DNA of 64,000 bases. Source: a virus. Of the stretch, positions 55,252-58,700 are shown in pieces; position 1 is the first letter of the stretch; each line of letters begins with the position of its first letter. Location: IMG/VR virus record IMGVR_UViG_3300044638_006409, positions 56,656 to 120,655 of that record; one strand, written 5' to 3'. The notes beneath the pieces were generated by a model. It had not been told where the DNA came from and did not search any database. It saw only the letters and a list, made by a program, of their open reading frames with translations. Both the position numbers and the translations under genes were made by a program.

Positions 55252-56157
55252 ATGCAAATTTTACTCGAAAAGGAGATTAGAAAAAATTTGGAAAAAATTT
55301 ACATAGAACAACAATCAGAACTAGTTAATGAAAAGTGGAATAAACTTTCCAAGGAGGATAAATTGATTGTTATAGAAATGTTCAAAATGTTGAATCCAAA
55401 TATTAAATTCCCAATAAACGAAGGAACATGGTGGAACACTATTGGTGATTGGGCTGGAATGATACCCATCATAGGTTCACCAATCGATCTTATAAATGGG
55501 ATTAGTTATTGGAGACAAGGGGATAAATTATTTGCTCTTTTATCATTCATTGGAGCAATACCAGTTTTTGGTGATTTGATTGCGACTCCTATTATGAATA
55601 TTATCAAAATGGGTGGAAGAAGTGCTGAATTAGTTAAGGGTGCGATTTTATCAAAAAACGCAACTAAGTTAGCTACGGCGGCAAACAAAATGGGCGGACC
55701 GGTTGCTAAAATGGTTGAAACATCTCCAAAATGGGGAGCACAACTAATTGAAGTTTTAGAAAAAACTGTGGGTAGTTTTCCAAAGTTGGGGACAGGATTT
55801 GTTAATACTGTAAAAGAATGGGTAAGTGTTTTTACTAAAGCTAAAACAAGTGCCGATGTTTTTAAAACAATGGGAAGACCAGCTGTGAGAAAATTGATGC
55901 AAAATACTAAATTTTATCTTAATGTTTTAGACTACTTAGGTATGGGTAATTTTACTGGTGGACCTGAAGAATTAGCAAAACAAGTACCTGATTTGGAAAG
56001 TAAAATTGCTGAGTATGAAAATTCTTTAAAATCAGATAAATCAATCGAATCAGATACTGGAACTAAAAGCGCCATAGCTCCACCTCCACCATCATCGAGT
56101 ATCTCGATTGGTGGAATTGACCCAATCGATTTATTCTTGGATGAACTTTTAAGTTAA
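55252..56157 (+). CDS. Tagged hydrophobic 'pretoxin-like' protein
   Basis: 301 residues. The tag-like N-terminus is MQILLEKEIRKNLEKIYIEQ. Residues ~60-125 show 'WWNTIGDWAGMIPIIGSPID', WRQGDKLFALLSFIGAIPVF and GDLIATPIM. This IPGxGDxxDxxxxxxxxxxGD-type pattern resembles the hydrophobic pretoxin module of polymorphic toxins and tail-fibre toxins (recalled). The remainder is amphipathic helices and a Pro/Ser tail (APPPPSSS). It might insert into membranes during DNA entry. Own motif upstream and terminator downstream. Confidence 0.5.
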   Translation: MQILLEKEIRKNLEKIYIEQQSELVNEKWNKLSKEDKLIVIEMFKMLNPNIKFPINEGTWWNTIGDWAGMIPIIGSPIDLINGISYWRQGDKLFALLSFIGAIPVFGDLIATPIMNIIKMGGRSAELVKGAILSKNATKLATAANKMGGPVAKMVETSPKWGAQLIEVLEKTVGSFPKLGTGFVNTVKEWVSVFTKAKTSADVFKTMGRPAVRKLMQNTKFYLNVLDYLGMGNFTGGPEELAKQVPDLESKIAEYENSLKSDKSIESDTGTKSAIAPPPPSSSISIGGIDPIDLFLDELLS

Positions 56158-56206: not shown

Positions 56207-56261
56207 ATTTGGTATTATATTATTTTCACAACGATATGGATGGTTTTTTTCATAAAACAAG

Positions 56262-56270
56262 ATATTTATA
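56262..56270 (+). promoter_or_regulatory. ATATTTATA motif upstream of HNH endonuclease
   Basis: Exact motif, 15 bases before the ATG at 56286, in a terminator-to-start gap. Confidence 0.35.
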
Positions 56271-56285
56271 ATAAAATATAGTTTT

Positions 56286-57191
56286 ATGATTAAATCAATT
56301 TGGAAACCCATTTATAGTAAATCAATAGTTGTTCATTATGATTTATTTGAGAATATTAATCTAACAAATGTTAAAGGTACAACAGCCTTTAAGGTTATTT
56401 GGACTTGTGATAACCCAAATTGTAAAACACCAAACGAATTACACTCAATTAATGCTGGTCATTTGACAAAACCTAAGATGTCCTTTGAGACACAAATATG
56501 TCGTCCTTGTCAATTGACTGGTGAGGGTAATGGGAGATATGGTGATAATAGAAAATGGGATGATTTTTTTGATGAAGAAAAACTTGGTAAAATGAAAAAA
56601 ATGTTTTCTGAGAAGTGGAAGGGAAGTAAAAATCCATCAATCAAAGATGAAGTCAAAATCAAAAAGAACCAAGTTATTATCAATGAATCATACTTGGGAA
56701 AAGTCACAAATGAAAATAATTTTCAACTATTAGATGTTTTAGTATTAAATGGAAAACATAGTAAAATTAAAGTACAATGTGAAAACAATCACATATCAGA
56801 AAAAACATATTGTAATTTTGTTCGTAAAACCAAAAAGTTTATATGTGAAAAATGTTTTTATGAATCAATTCAACTTAAATTAAGTGATGATGAAATAAAA
56901 AAGTGGAAACAATATGATAAGATTGTAAGAGCTTTAACAGCAAGAAACTATAGAACTTATAAAGAAATTATAAACCCAAATAATTTACCTATTGGTAGGG
57001 GAAAACATCACTTAGACCATAGGTTTAGTATTAGTGAGGGATATAAAAAAAATATACCACCACAAATTATTAGTGCTAAAGAAAACTTAGAAGTTATTAC
57101 AGAAAGTGAAAATTGTTCTAAACAAGAAAAATGTTCAATAACTTATGATGAACTAATTAATAAAACACAATATTTATTAATAAAAAAATAA
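56286..57191 (+). CDS. Free-standing HNH homing-type endonuclease
   Basis: 301 residues. Zinc-binding pairs CDNPNC and CRPC (residues 42-75) precede a NUMOD3-like DNA-binding stretch (GEGNGRYGDNR, later GSKNPSIKDE). A second pair CENNH / CEKC follows, and then the nuclease GRGKHHLDHRFSISEGYKKN plus NLEVITESENCSKQEK. HHLDHRFS is the HNH metal/catalytic site and the final N..N..K is typical of phage homing endonucleases. Its stop abuts the ATG of the interrupted DHH gene (TAAATG). This is the usual arrangement of a homing endonuclease next to its target gene. Confidence 0.85.
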   Translation: MIKSIWKPIYSKSIVVHYDLFENINLTNVKGTTAFKVIWTCDNPNCKTPNELHSINAGHLTKPKMSFETQICRPCQLTGEGNGRYGDNRKWDDFFDEEKLGKMKKMFSEKWKGSKNPSIKDEVKIKKNQVIINESYLGKVTNENNFQLLDVLVLNGKHSKIKVQCENNHISEKTYCNFVRKTKKFICEKCFYESIQLKLSDDEIKKWKQYDKIVRALTARNYRTYKEIINPNNLPIGRGKHHLDHRFSISEGYKKNIPPQIISAKENLEVITESENCSKQEKCSITYDELINKTQYLLIKK

Positions 57192-58700
57192 ATGAATACA
57201 ATTAAAACCAAAATGGTCCTGATTGAAAGTGGAATTAGAGATATCAATTCTCTTGCTCTTCGCTATAAAAAAGCGAAGGTCTACTTTCATCAGGACCTTT
57301 GACTGGATGGTGTAACGTCTGCTTTAGGAATGAAAAAATACTTGGAAAATAATGGTATCAAAGTTGTTGATGCTGAGATTATCCAATATGGTGGTGACGA
57401 ATGGGCTATAAAAAAACCAGATGCAAGTGGTGATGTTATGCCCGTATTAGTTGATTTTGCTCATGGAAAACCAATGTTTGTTATTCATACTGACCACCAC
57501 GATACACAATCTGGTGTAGAAAAAGATACATCAACAAGTTTCAAGTCAGCAAGGTCAAATGTGGAAACAATTTCAGGTGTATTATCACCAAGAGATATAT
57601 TTCCTTCAGCTGACATCAAATTAATTTCAACTGTGGATTCCGCTAACTTTAGAGCTATGGGAATTACTATGGATGATGTTATCAATTATGTTATTAAGAT
57701 TGATAAGGGACAACCAGTTGAAAGAAATAAGATGTTAATGGGTTTGGTTACAAACAAACTATTATTGGCATTTAAGAATAAAAAAGGATTCTTGGATAGA
57801 TTGGTAATGGAGTGTGAACCATCTCTAATCAGTATCTTCAACAAGATAAGACAAATTATGAAAGAAGAGGGTTGGTCAGGTGTTGAGGAACTACAAATGA
57901 ATAGAGAGAAATACCTCCAACAAATGAAAACTTATGCAAAACAGAAGTTTGAGGATGGTATTATTATCAAAGATGGTGGTGGAAGTATGACTAAACCAGG
58001 TTCATATGATAGGTATGCTAGTTTCTATATTTATCCTGATGCTGATTTCCAAGTAATAACTTGGGGTTCTGTAGGTTTACTACAAGTATCTTGTAACCCA
58101 TTCAAAGAACAAAGAGGATTGAAAGGAATTGACTTGGGTGAAATTAATAGAGGTATTATTGAAAGAAGAAAACCTGAGTTAAGTGAAATTAAAATAACTG
58201 CGGGTAAACTTAAAAGAGTTGCTGAAACTAGTAAGAGATTTGTTCCTGGTGAGAGTGTTGGGTTTACATTAAAGGATTTGTTATCTTTTTATGGTGATGC
58301 ACTTGAAGGTTATAATGAAATACCAAGAAAATTTGAAAACTTCTTGTCTAAAAAATATCCTGATTATGAAAGAGGTTTACAAGAATGGCAAAAAATTGTA
58401 AGTAAAACGATGTCAAAACCATATGTTGAACTTAGTGAGTTTGAACAATCAGTATTGGATTCAGTATATACAACAGCTTATGATGTAATTAAGAATAATA
58501 GTGGTGGACATAAGTGTATCACTAATTTCCAAGCATCAGCATTAGGTGGTGGATTCGGACCTTACAAAACAACTGAGTTCATTGGAATGATTAAAGATGA
58601 GTTCGTTGAAATATTAAGAGAAAGAATCAGAGCTGAAAAAGGCGATGATGTTAATGAAAACTACTTTAAGAATATAATTAAGAAAGTAATGAAAGGTTAA
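57192..58700 (+). CDS. DHH-family phosphoesterase interrupted by in-frame TGA (predicted 6-nt hop)
   Basis: One frame from ATG 57192 (or 57213) to 58700 is broken only by TGA at 57300-57302. Residues before it end YFHQDL; after it the frame reads LDGVTSALG. Omitting CTT TGA (or any equivalent 6 bases) gives HQDLDGVTSA, the H-x-D-x-D-G catalytic motif I. Downstream IHTDHHDT is the DHH motif and GGHKC the DHHA1-like motif. The split removes motif I from any product started at ATG 57330. The hop product would be about 500 residues. Likely a nuclease or nucleotide phosphodiesterase; active form requires recoding. Pseudogene is the alternative. Confidence 0.7.
57211..57300 (+). promoter_or_regulatory. 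Structured mRNA element upstream of the TGA hop site
   Basis: 57211-57230 pairs with 57283-57300 (18 pairs, single-base bulges T214 and T224 counted from 57000). Inside are GAATT/AATTC (57232-57236 with 57246-57250) and CTTCGCT/AGCGAAG (57258-57264 with 57272-57278, A-rich loop). The last hairpin ends 18 bases before the CTT codon. That is where RNA can refold behind a ribosome paused on CTT. All pairing lies in coding sequence. Confidence 0.7.

Follow-up and report, generated by a model that had tools for sequence, protein, structure and literature searches.

A putative nuclease-linked cassette and a predicted ribosomal stop hop within motif I of a phage DHH phosphoesterase gene

The interrupted gene and its upstream region

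The stretch of DNA analysed here, called the window, comprises 64,000 nt (positions 56,656–120,655) of the IMG/VR record IMGVR_UViG_3300044638_006409. On its plus strand, a DHH/RecJ-like phosphoesterase gene spans 57192–58700 in a single frame, interrupted by a TGA codon at 57300 within catalytic motif I. The frame reads ATG...CAT CAG GAC CTT TGA, followed by CTG GAT GGT..., and remains open from 57303 to 58700; the TGA splits motif I into the halves H-Q-D-L and L-D-G. Skipping six bases yields HQDLDGVTSA, and a +1 shift at the TGA meets TAA after four codons. A preliminary description of the locus had given this frame, the codons at the TGA, the product of six-base removal and the +1 stop, and it proved exact on each. 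Elsewhere in the window TGA serves this phage as a normal terminator, ending 9 of 62 ORFs.

The gene has the features of DHH/RecJ-like enzymes, namely motif I (HxDxDG), the DHH motif and, by predicted structure, a RecJ-like fold. An intact relative matched the Pfam DHH family (PF01368) with E=0.001, below the curated cut-off, and the AlphaFold model of an intact relative matched RecJ structures (Foldseek E=1.1e-5). Among named phages, only two distant DHH records were found (37–42% identity), in the huge uncultured phages LR745206.1 and LR756502.1 (about 635–642 kb). The post-stop ORFs of L089, L103 and L211 extend to 585–765 codons, compared with the usual ~440, and may contain insertions in the DHH gene or fusions to it. 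Upstream of the locus, at 55252–56157, lies an ORF with a glycine/proline-rich tail; ORFs of this kind (~300–375 aa) recur between DNA methylase and DHH genes, and are also found upstream in L068, L105 and L108.

Table 1. Coordinates of the features at the interrupted DHH locus in the window.
Feature	Position	Strand	Basis or remarks
Non-coding copy resembling DHH motif I DNA (TTTCACAACGATATGGATGGTTT)	56224..56246	+	62 nt 5′ of the nuclease start
TATTTATAA promoter-like motif before the nuclease gene	56263..56271	+	Sequence inspection
Putative HNH-type homing endonuclease	56286..57191	+	Cys-pair zinc-finger-like motifs; C-terminal HxDHxxS..NLxxI..N motif
TATTTATTAA promoter-like motif within the 3′ end of the nuclease gene, upstream of the DHH start codon	57171..57180	+	Putative function
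5′ ORF of the DHH gene, 36 codons (...YFHQDL), cassette-borne	57192..57299	+	Ends in take-off CTT (57297–57299)
mRNA structure, conserved three-way junction	57216..57296	+	Predicted fold, covariation
P1 (17 bp)	57216–57233 with 57280–57296	+	3′ arm abuts the take-off codon
P2, inner hairpin	57237–57253	+	
P3, inner hairpin	57258–57278	+	
In-frame TGA stop, replaced in some relatives by TAG or TAA	57300..57302	+	Landing codon directly 3′ in the window
Landing CTG and remainder of the DHH/RecJ-like phosphoesterase	57303..58700	+	Landing codon 57303–57305; DHH motif HTDHH; C-terminal SGGH

The stop codon of the upstream nuclease ORF overlaps the DHH start codon (TAAATG). Such a putative nuclease of ~300 residues lies directly upstream of 13 of 31 interrupted genes and of none of 88 intact relatives (Fisher 3e-9), and a search for the nuclease family returned 20 complete loci, all 20 of which adjoin an interrupted DHH gene. 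In several interrupted genes, only remnants of the nuclease 3′ end are present. The protein has no match in Pfam, NCBIfam or the PDB, so that its function is assigned from the motif alone; its AlphaFold model gave no meaningful Foldseek match, and its PHROG relatives are of unknown function. Distant relatives of the nuclease (28%), possibly representing a free-standing ancestor, occur upstream of an intact DHH gene in L165 and L171.

Promoter-like motifs precede both genes. The TATTTATAA motif is also found before many other genes of the window phage, and the TATTTATTAA motif is retained in cassettes that have no nuclease. Many gene starts in the window are preceded by a TATTTAT(A/T)A-like motif, which may be the promoter of this phage group. 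No Shine–Dalgarno sites were seen at the gene starts of the window phage, which suggests a host among the Bacteroidota.

The motif I-like element TTTCACAACGATATGGATGGTTT agrees with the target consensus at 19 of 23 positions, compared with a maximum of 17 after shuffling. Nine of 12 loci with the nuclease have a similar element just 5′ of the promoter-like motif, at a distance of 54–65 nt from the nuclease start codon (L193, L195, L198–L200, L205, L208, L210 and L211). It may serve as an operator or as a decoy of the homing site. In I-TevI, a homing-site-like operator overlaps the nuclease promoter, an arrangement that the motif I-like copy beside TATTTATAA resembles (PMC2988022); by analogy, autorepression of the cassette nuclease through 56224–56246 might be guessed at. 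This second HxDxDG-like sequence upstream of the nuclease also raised the possibility that a group I/II intron separates the gene from a remote 5′ exon, a reading that was ruled out. An Rfam search found no such intron or other genuine Rfam family at the locus, its miRNA and snoRNA matches being due to chance. Furthermore, there is no conserved open frame at 56224–56246, in relatives the sequence stands apart, as an element of its own ahead of the nuclease promoter, and the two exon ends are adjacent, with no intron core between them.

Hop-site rules and selection in related genes

A protein search of viral contigs gave 67 loci, of which a minority have the same interruption and most do not, and the CTT-TGA-CTK site of the window was found in other viral contigs. 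Exact, degenerate and variable-gap DNA scans of viral contigs returned 50 matching stretches, corresponding to 31 distinct interrupted genes, and 88 distinct uninterrupted relatives were collected. Because some interrupted genes are near-copies, they represent at least ~26 lineages; the variable-gap scan demanded CTN codons and AGGAY, and other variants may therefore be missed. A pattern scan of bacterial genomes gave only two unrelated Arthrobacter matches. What might have been another DHH paralogue in contigs carrying the gene turned out to be the gene itself.

In all 31 interrupted genes, the take-off codon is directly followed by a stop, which may be TGA, TAG or TAA, and both the take-off and landing codons are Leu CTN codons, identical in more than half of the genes and synonymous in the rest. 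No TTR codon was seen at the site in scans that allowed any YTN codon (23 six-nt genes), whereas the corresponding Leu codon of intact genes, in which the allele reads ...CAYCARGAYYTNGAYGG..., is TTR (TTA or TTG) in 83 of 88. The distance from take-off to landing is 6 nt (23 genes), 8 nt (two, among them L211), 9 nt (two) or 11 nt (four, among them L214), so that in 23 of 31 genes codon, stop and codon amount, by sequence, to nine nucleotides for one residue. In every gap form, the landing CTN precedes GAY GGN, and a hop restores HxDLDG.

These comparisons bear on several claims of the preliminary description. The CTN pairs, the gaps and the selection described below all support its proposal of a Leu-to-Leu hop over the stop; its six-base distance holds in the window and in 23 genes, but relatives also have codons spaced 8, 9 or 11 nt apart. 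It had allowed that the six extra bases might be specific to one lineage, which does not hold, as the interruption is spread over many phages and occurs with other gap lengths. An assembly error, which it had listed as a refuting outcome, is contradicted by dozens of independent contigs that carry the interruption.

Read-through of the stop, by a suppressor or through stop reassignment, would place one amino acid at the stop and give HQDL-x-LDG. This could serve the six- and nine-nucleotide versions, which are in frame, but the 8- and 11-nt versions put the remaining ~440 enzyme codons in another frame, and read-through in any form would thus be unable to make the enzyme from them. As the preliminary description had argued for the window allele, read-through would also spoil motif I; across the versions it would insert two to three extra residues into a motif that is invariant across all 88 intact genes. 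In DHH genes, an any-codon scan between the two Leu codons yielded only stops and never a sense codon, and read-through leaves the selection for CTN on both sides unexplained. Stop reassignment is ruled out by the occurrence of all three stops at the site and by the use of TGA as an ordinary terminator of other genes. Overall, read-through is very unlikely.

Ribosomal frameshifting is less probable still. The window sequence CUUUGAC has the shape of the prfB slip site, and an RF2-like +1 slip at CUU-UGA-C could be envisaged there; for the versions with gaps of 8 or 11 nt, slippage by −1 could be invoked. However, the +1 frame ends after four codons in the window and is unused in every version, the TAG and TAA alleles are incompatible with the RF2 type, and a −1 slip fails for the 6- and 9-nt alleles and would put residues into motif I.

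The sequence after the stop evolves as coding sequence. Post-stop dN/dS values for pairs of interrupted sisters (L068/L076, 0.049; L086/L098, 0.049; L161/L182, 0.055; L105/L107, 0.056) are like those of intact pairs, and across interrupted sisters the ratio is about 0.05–0.2 (0.049–0.18) at dS of about 1. From the landing codon onward, codons change almost solely by synonymous substitution, and the downstream ORF is open in all interrupted lineages but one. This is the pattern by which programmed bypassing is recognised: open coding sequence beyond an undecodable gap, with purifying selection on both sides. Judging from these substitutions, the post-stop part of the interrupted gene appears to be translated. 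Over the 28 pre-stop codons, dS between interrupted alleles is 0.1–0.28, compared with about 1 downstream; part of this low divergence could come from recent transfer of the cassette rather than RNA constraint.

Another reading is a split gene, in which a 36-residue peptide and a separate C-terminal protein are made by internal initiation or reinitiation after the stop. Nuclease insertions do divide T4-type nrdA and gene 39/60 into separate polypeptides (PMC2988022), and many interrupted genes have an ATG nine codons past the landing codon. Yet the codons between landing and this ATG are conserved as protein, with synonymous change only, and in L098, L099, L105, L107, L219 and L224 the first ATG lies 45–46 codons past landing, so that internal initiation would lose conserved sequence. 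A split gene, which further gives no account of the CTN-stop-CTN arrangement or of a variable gap that restores exact HxDLDG, is as improbable as read-through.

Decay of the gene, a refuting outcome named in the preliminary description, is contradicted by the open ORFs and low dN/dS, with one exception. The lineage comprising L071, L074, L077, L081 and L082 has kept the hop site and lost the mRNA stem described below, and it is the only one with an additional nonsense codon: copies long enough to include codon 85 have an in-frame TAA there, in place of the TCA of relatives. It is either a decaying allele or the site of another recoding event, and provides a natural control for decay. A pseudogene, or a sequencing or assembly error, might be suspected from this second stop, but the decayed lineage is also the sole one without a stem. 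For the interrupted genes as a group, the dozens of independent contigs, the conserved site, the open downstream frames and a dN/dS of about 0.05 between sisters make this explanation hardly tenable.

A conserved mRNA structure and horizontal transfer of the cassette

Beyond the features given in the preliminary description, the DNA around the hop site belongs to a strong predicted RNA structure (57216–57296) and to a cassette linked to the nuclease. For the copy in the window, the folding energy is −44.9 kcal/mol (z about −6.2 to −6.3). For the same stretch, minimum free energies are −29 to −42 kcal/mol in interrupted genes, compared with a mean of −12 and a minimum of −24 in the 88 intact genes. 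The predicted structure occurs in 30 of 31 interrupted and none of the 88 intact genes, the lone exception being the lineage with a second nonsense codon. P1, which occupies alignment columns 10–27 and 74–90, is paired in 98% of cells, and shifting the partner reduces this to 35–46%. Compensatory changes are found at the P1 pairs 10–90, 15–85 and 16–84 (G-C/A-U at two, G-C/U-A at one), and the divergent L099 preserves the stem through other bases (GGUCCUUAUGGAA/UUCCAUAAGGAUC).

A covariance model over 39 loci placed the cassette at DHH genes and nowhere else; it also matched the reverse strand of the element, as a hairpin should. Individual and consensus folds gave no consistent stem over the stop itself. 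AGGA stands directly 5′ of the take-off codon in 31 of 31 interrupted genes, compared with 7 of 88 intact genes; as it falls within P1, a Shine–Dalgarno-like role is inseparable from the stem. The encoded segment before the hop site, RYKKA-K/E-IYFHQD, is conserved in interrupted and intact genes alike.

Instead, the 6–11 nt might be removed from the mRNA, by a tiny splice or RNA editing, once the strong stem abutting the site has formed. We know of no bacterial mechanism for excising such short pieces, and the need for a stop and matching CTN codons places the event at the codon level rather than the RNA level. This route is therefore given scarcely any weight.

The cassette appears to have moved between phages. 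When mapped onto a tree built from the protein encoded after the stop, interrupted genes are scattered and require 10 changes of state. Identity between L108, which has the nuclease, and the intact L127 is 90% up to 993/80 nt before the site; for L075 and the intact L004 it is 92% up to 162/107 nt before it. Between such interrupted and intact sisters the cassette differs, and identity returns about 15–30 nt past the stop. An identical cassette is present in L070/L080 and L008, ahead of diverged enzymes. The scattered state and the cassette borders are what homing with co-conversion predicts, and on this comparative evidence the cassette moves horizontally with the nuclease gene.

Proposed mechanism and comparison with known bypass systems

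Taken together, it is highly probable that the locus contains a mobile cassette, composed of a nuclease gene, a new 5′ end and a bypass site, and that a programmed stop hop of the ribosome rescues the cassette's host gene. The cassette would have replaced the first ~25 codons of the phage DHH (RecJ-like) phosphoesterase gene, bringing the gene for a putative HNH homing nuclease together with a promoter-like motif, a new start codon with ~35 codons that fold as a three-way junction, and a CTN-stop-(0–5 nt)-CTN bypass site inside motif I. Motif I comprises the most conserved codons of the gene, making it an ideal homing target. The inserted bases probably destroy the nuclease target, so that the cassette would be immune and spread into intact alleles while the host gene survives.

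During translation, the ribosome would halt with peptidyl-tRNA-Leu on the P-site CTN codon and the stop codon in the A site. By then, P2 and P3 would have refolded behind the ribosome, with the P1 3′ arm still inside. The waiting P1 5′ arm would zip onto the emerging 3′ arm and pull the mRNA backwards; the peptidyl-tRNA would release, the ribosome would move 6–11 nt, and the tRNA would re-pair with the next CTN codon to complete H-x-D-L-D-G. Where CTG or CTA follows a take-off CTT, the codons are synonymous rather than identical, so that landing would need a tRNA-Leu that reads several CUN codons. The sequences themselves show the conservation, the reading frames, selection, RNA covariation, linkage to the nuclease and horizontal spread; from these comparative data we infer the hop during translation, the action of the stem as a zipper and the specificity of the nuclease.

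To our knowledge, stop hops have for decades been confined to synthetic constructs, and T4 gene 60 stands almost alone among bacterial and phage genes. According to the treatment of stop hopping in a 2016 review, no natural occurrences of in-frame stop hopping were known (PMC5009743), and a limited search of the later literature found no natural stop hop; the preliminary description's statement that such a bypass had not been described agrees with the literature covered. Bypassing as such has precedents in T4 gene 60 and in the mitochondria of Magnusiomyces, and its short, stop-flanked, variable-gap and widespread form is, as far as can be told, new. It is probable, if less firmly so than the mechanism itself, that these loci are a family of mobile elements that hide in a catalytic motif through ribosome jumps rather than splicing or inteins, and that they provide the first natural stop hops, in and out of frame. 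With similar probability, each such element has, or once had, its own nuclease, along with an mRNA structure that promotes bypassing and a stop-hop site with an evolving gap (6, 8, 9 or 11 nt). Dozens of diverged versions, which differ in gap length (four) and in stop codon (all three) and share a compact conserved RNA element, make the take-off and landing rules directly testable. Bypass cassettes would represent a recurrent homing strategy, and some broken-looking metagenomic phage genes may be intact.

Several known systems resemble parts of this arrangement. The prfB (RF2) +1 frameshift site, CUU UGA C, is the same heptamer as the window allele; however, prfB uses the +1 frame, whereas here that frame is unused, the stop may also be TAG or TAA, and landing is on a separate codon. 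Stop hops were reportedly obtained in synthetic E. coli constructs by Weiss et al. in 1987. In the review's account of such constructs, matched codons flank the stop and nine nucleotides give one amino acid (PMC5009743). These are artificial constructs only, as far as that account goes, whereas the DHH case would be natural and conserved, with a dedicated RNA structure. The byps of Magnusiomyces capitatus mitochondria are likewise short inserts skipped by ribosomes, often with matching take-off and landing codons, but they are mitochondrial and context-independent, occur in many genes and involve an unused codon rather than a stop, and the review's passages on them discuss no linked nuclease (PMC5009743). 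A UUA-based phage system, as outlined in the available account, shares a short gap and a Shine–Dalgarno-like sequence 5′ of it; it differs in its suggested regulatory role, and that account does not describe it as stop-flanked or link it to a nuclease.

The closest likeness is to T4 gene 60, whose programmed bypass, with the MobA homing nuclease, was reportedly described by Bonocora et al. in PNAS in 2011. Both cases involve a phage gene, a stop after the take-off codon, a matched landing codon, an upstream mRNA stem-loop (predicted here), a neighbouring HNH-type nuclease (putative here), an insert that may protect from cleavage, and a mobile cassette. In the parts of the T4 literature drawn on here, completion of a 5′ stem-loop has been proposed as the motor of bypassing (PMC5009743, PMC11194080), and the insert is thought to destroy the nuclease target (PMC5009743). 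The T4 gap, however, is 50 nt, compared with 6–11 nt from codon to codon in the DHH genes, and T4 bypassing concerns a topoisomerase and Gly GGA codons rather than a DHH gene and Leu CTN codons. The take-off stem-loop of gene 60 was not found in the DHH genes, nor was a clear counterpart of its long nascent-peptide signal, and a single gene in T4-like phages contrasts with at least ~26 diverged lineages. MobA and the cassette nuclease are likened by HNH-type motif and position only, not by protein kinship. The stop-hop cassette is best read as an analogue of gene 60 and MobA with a minimal gap.
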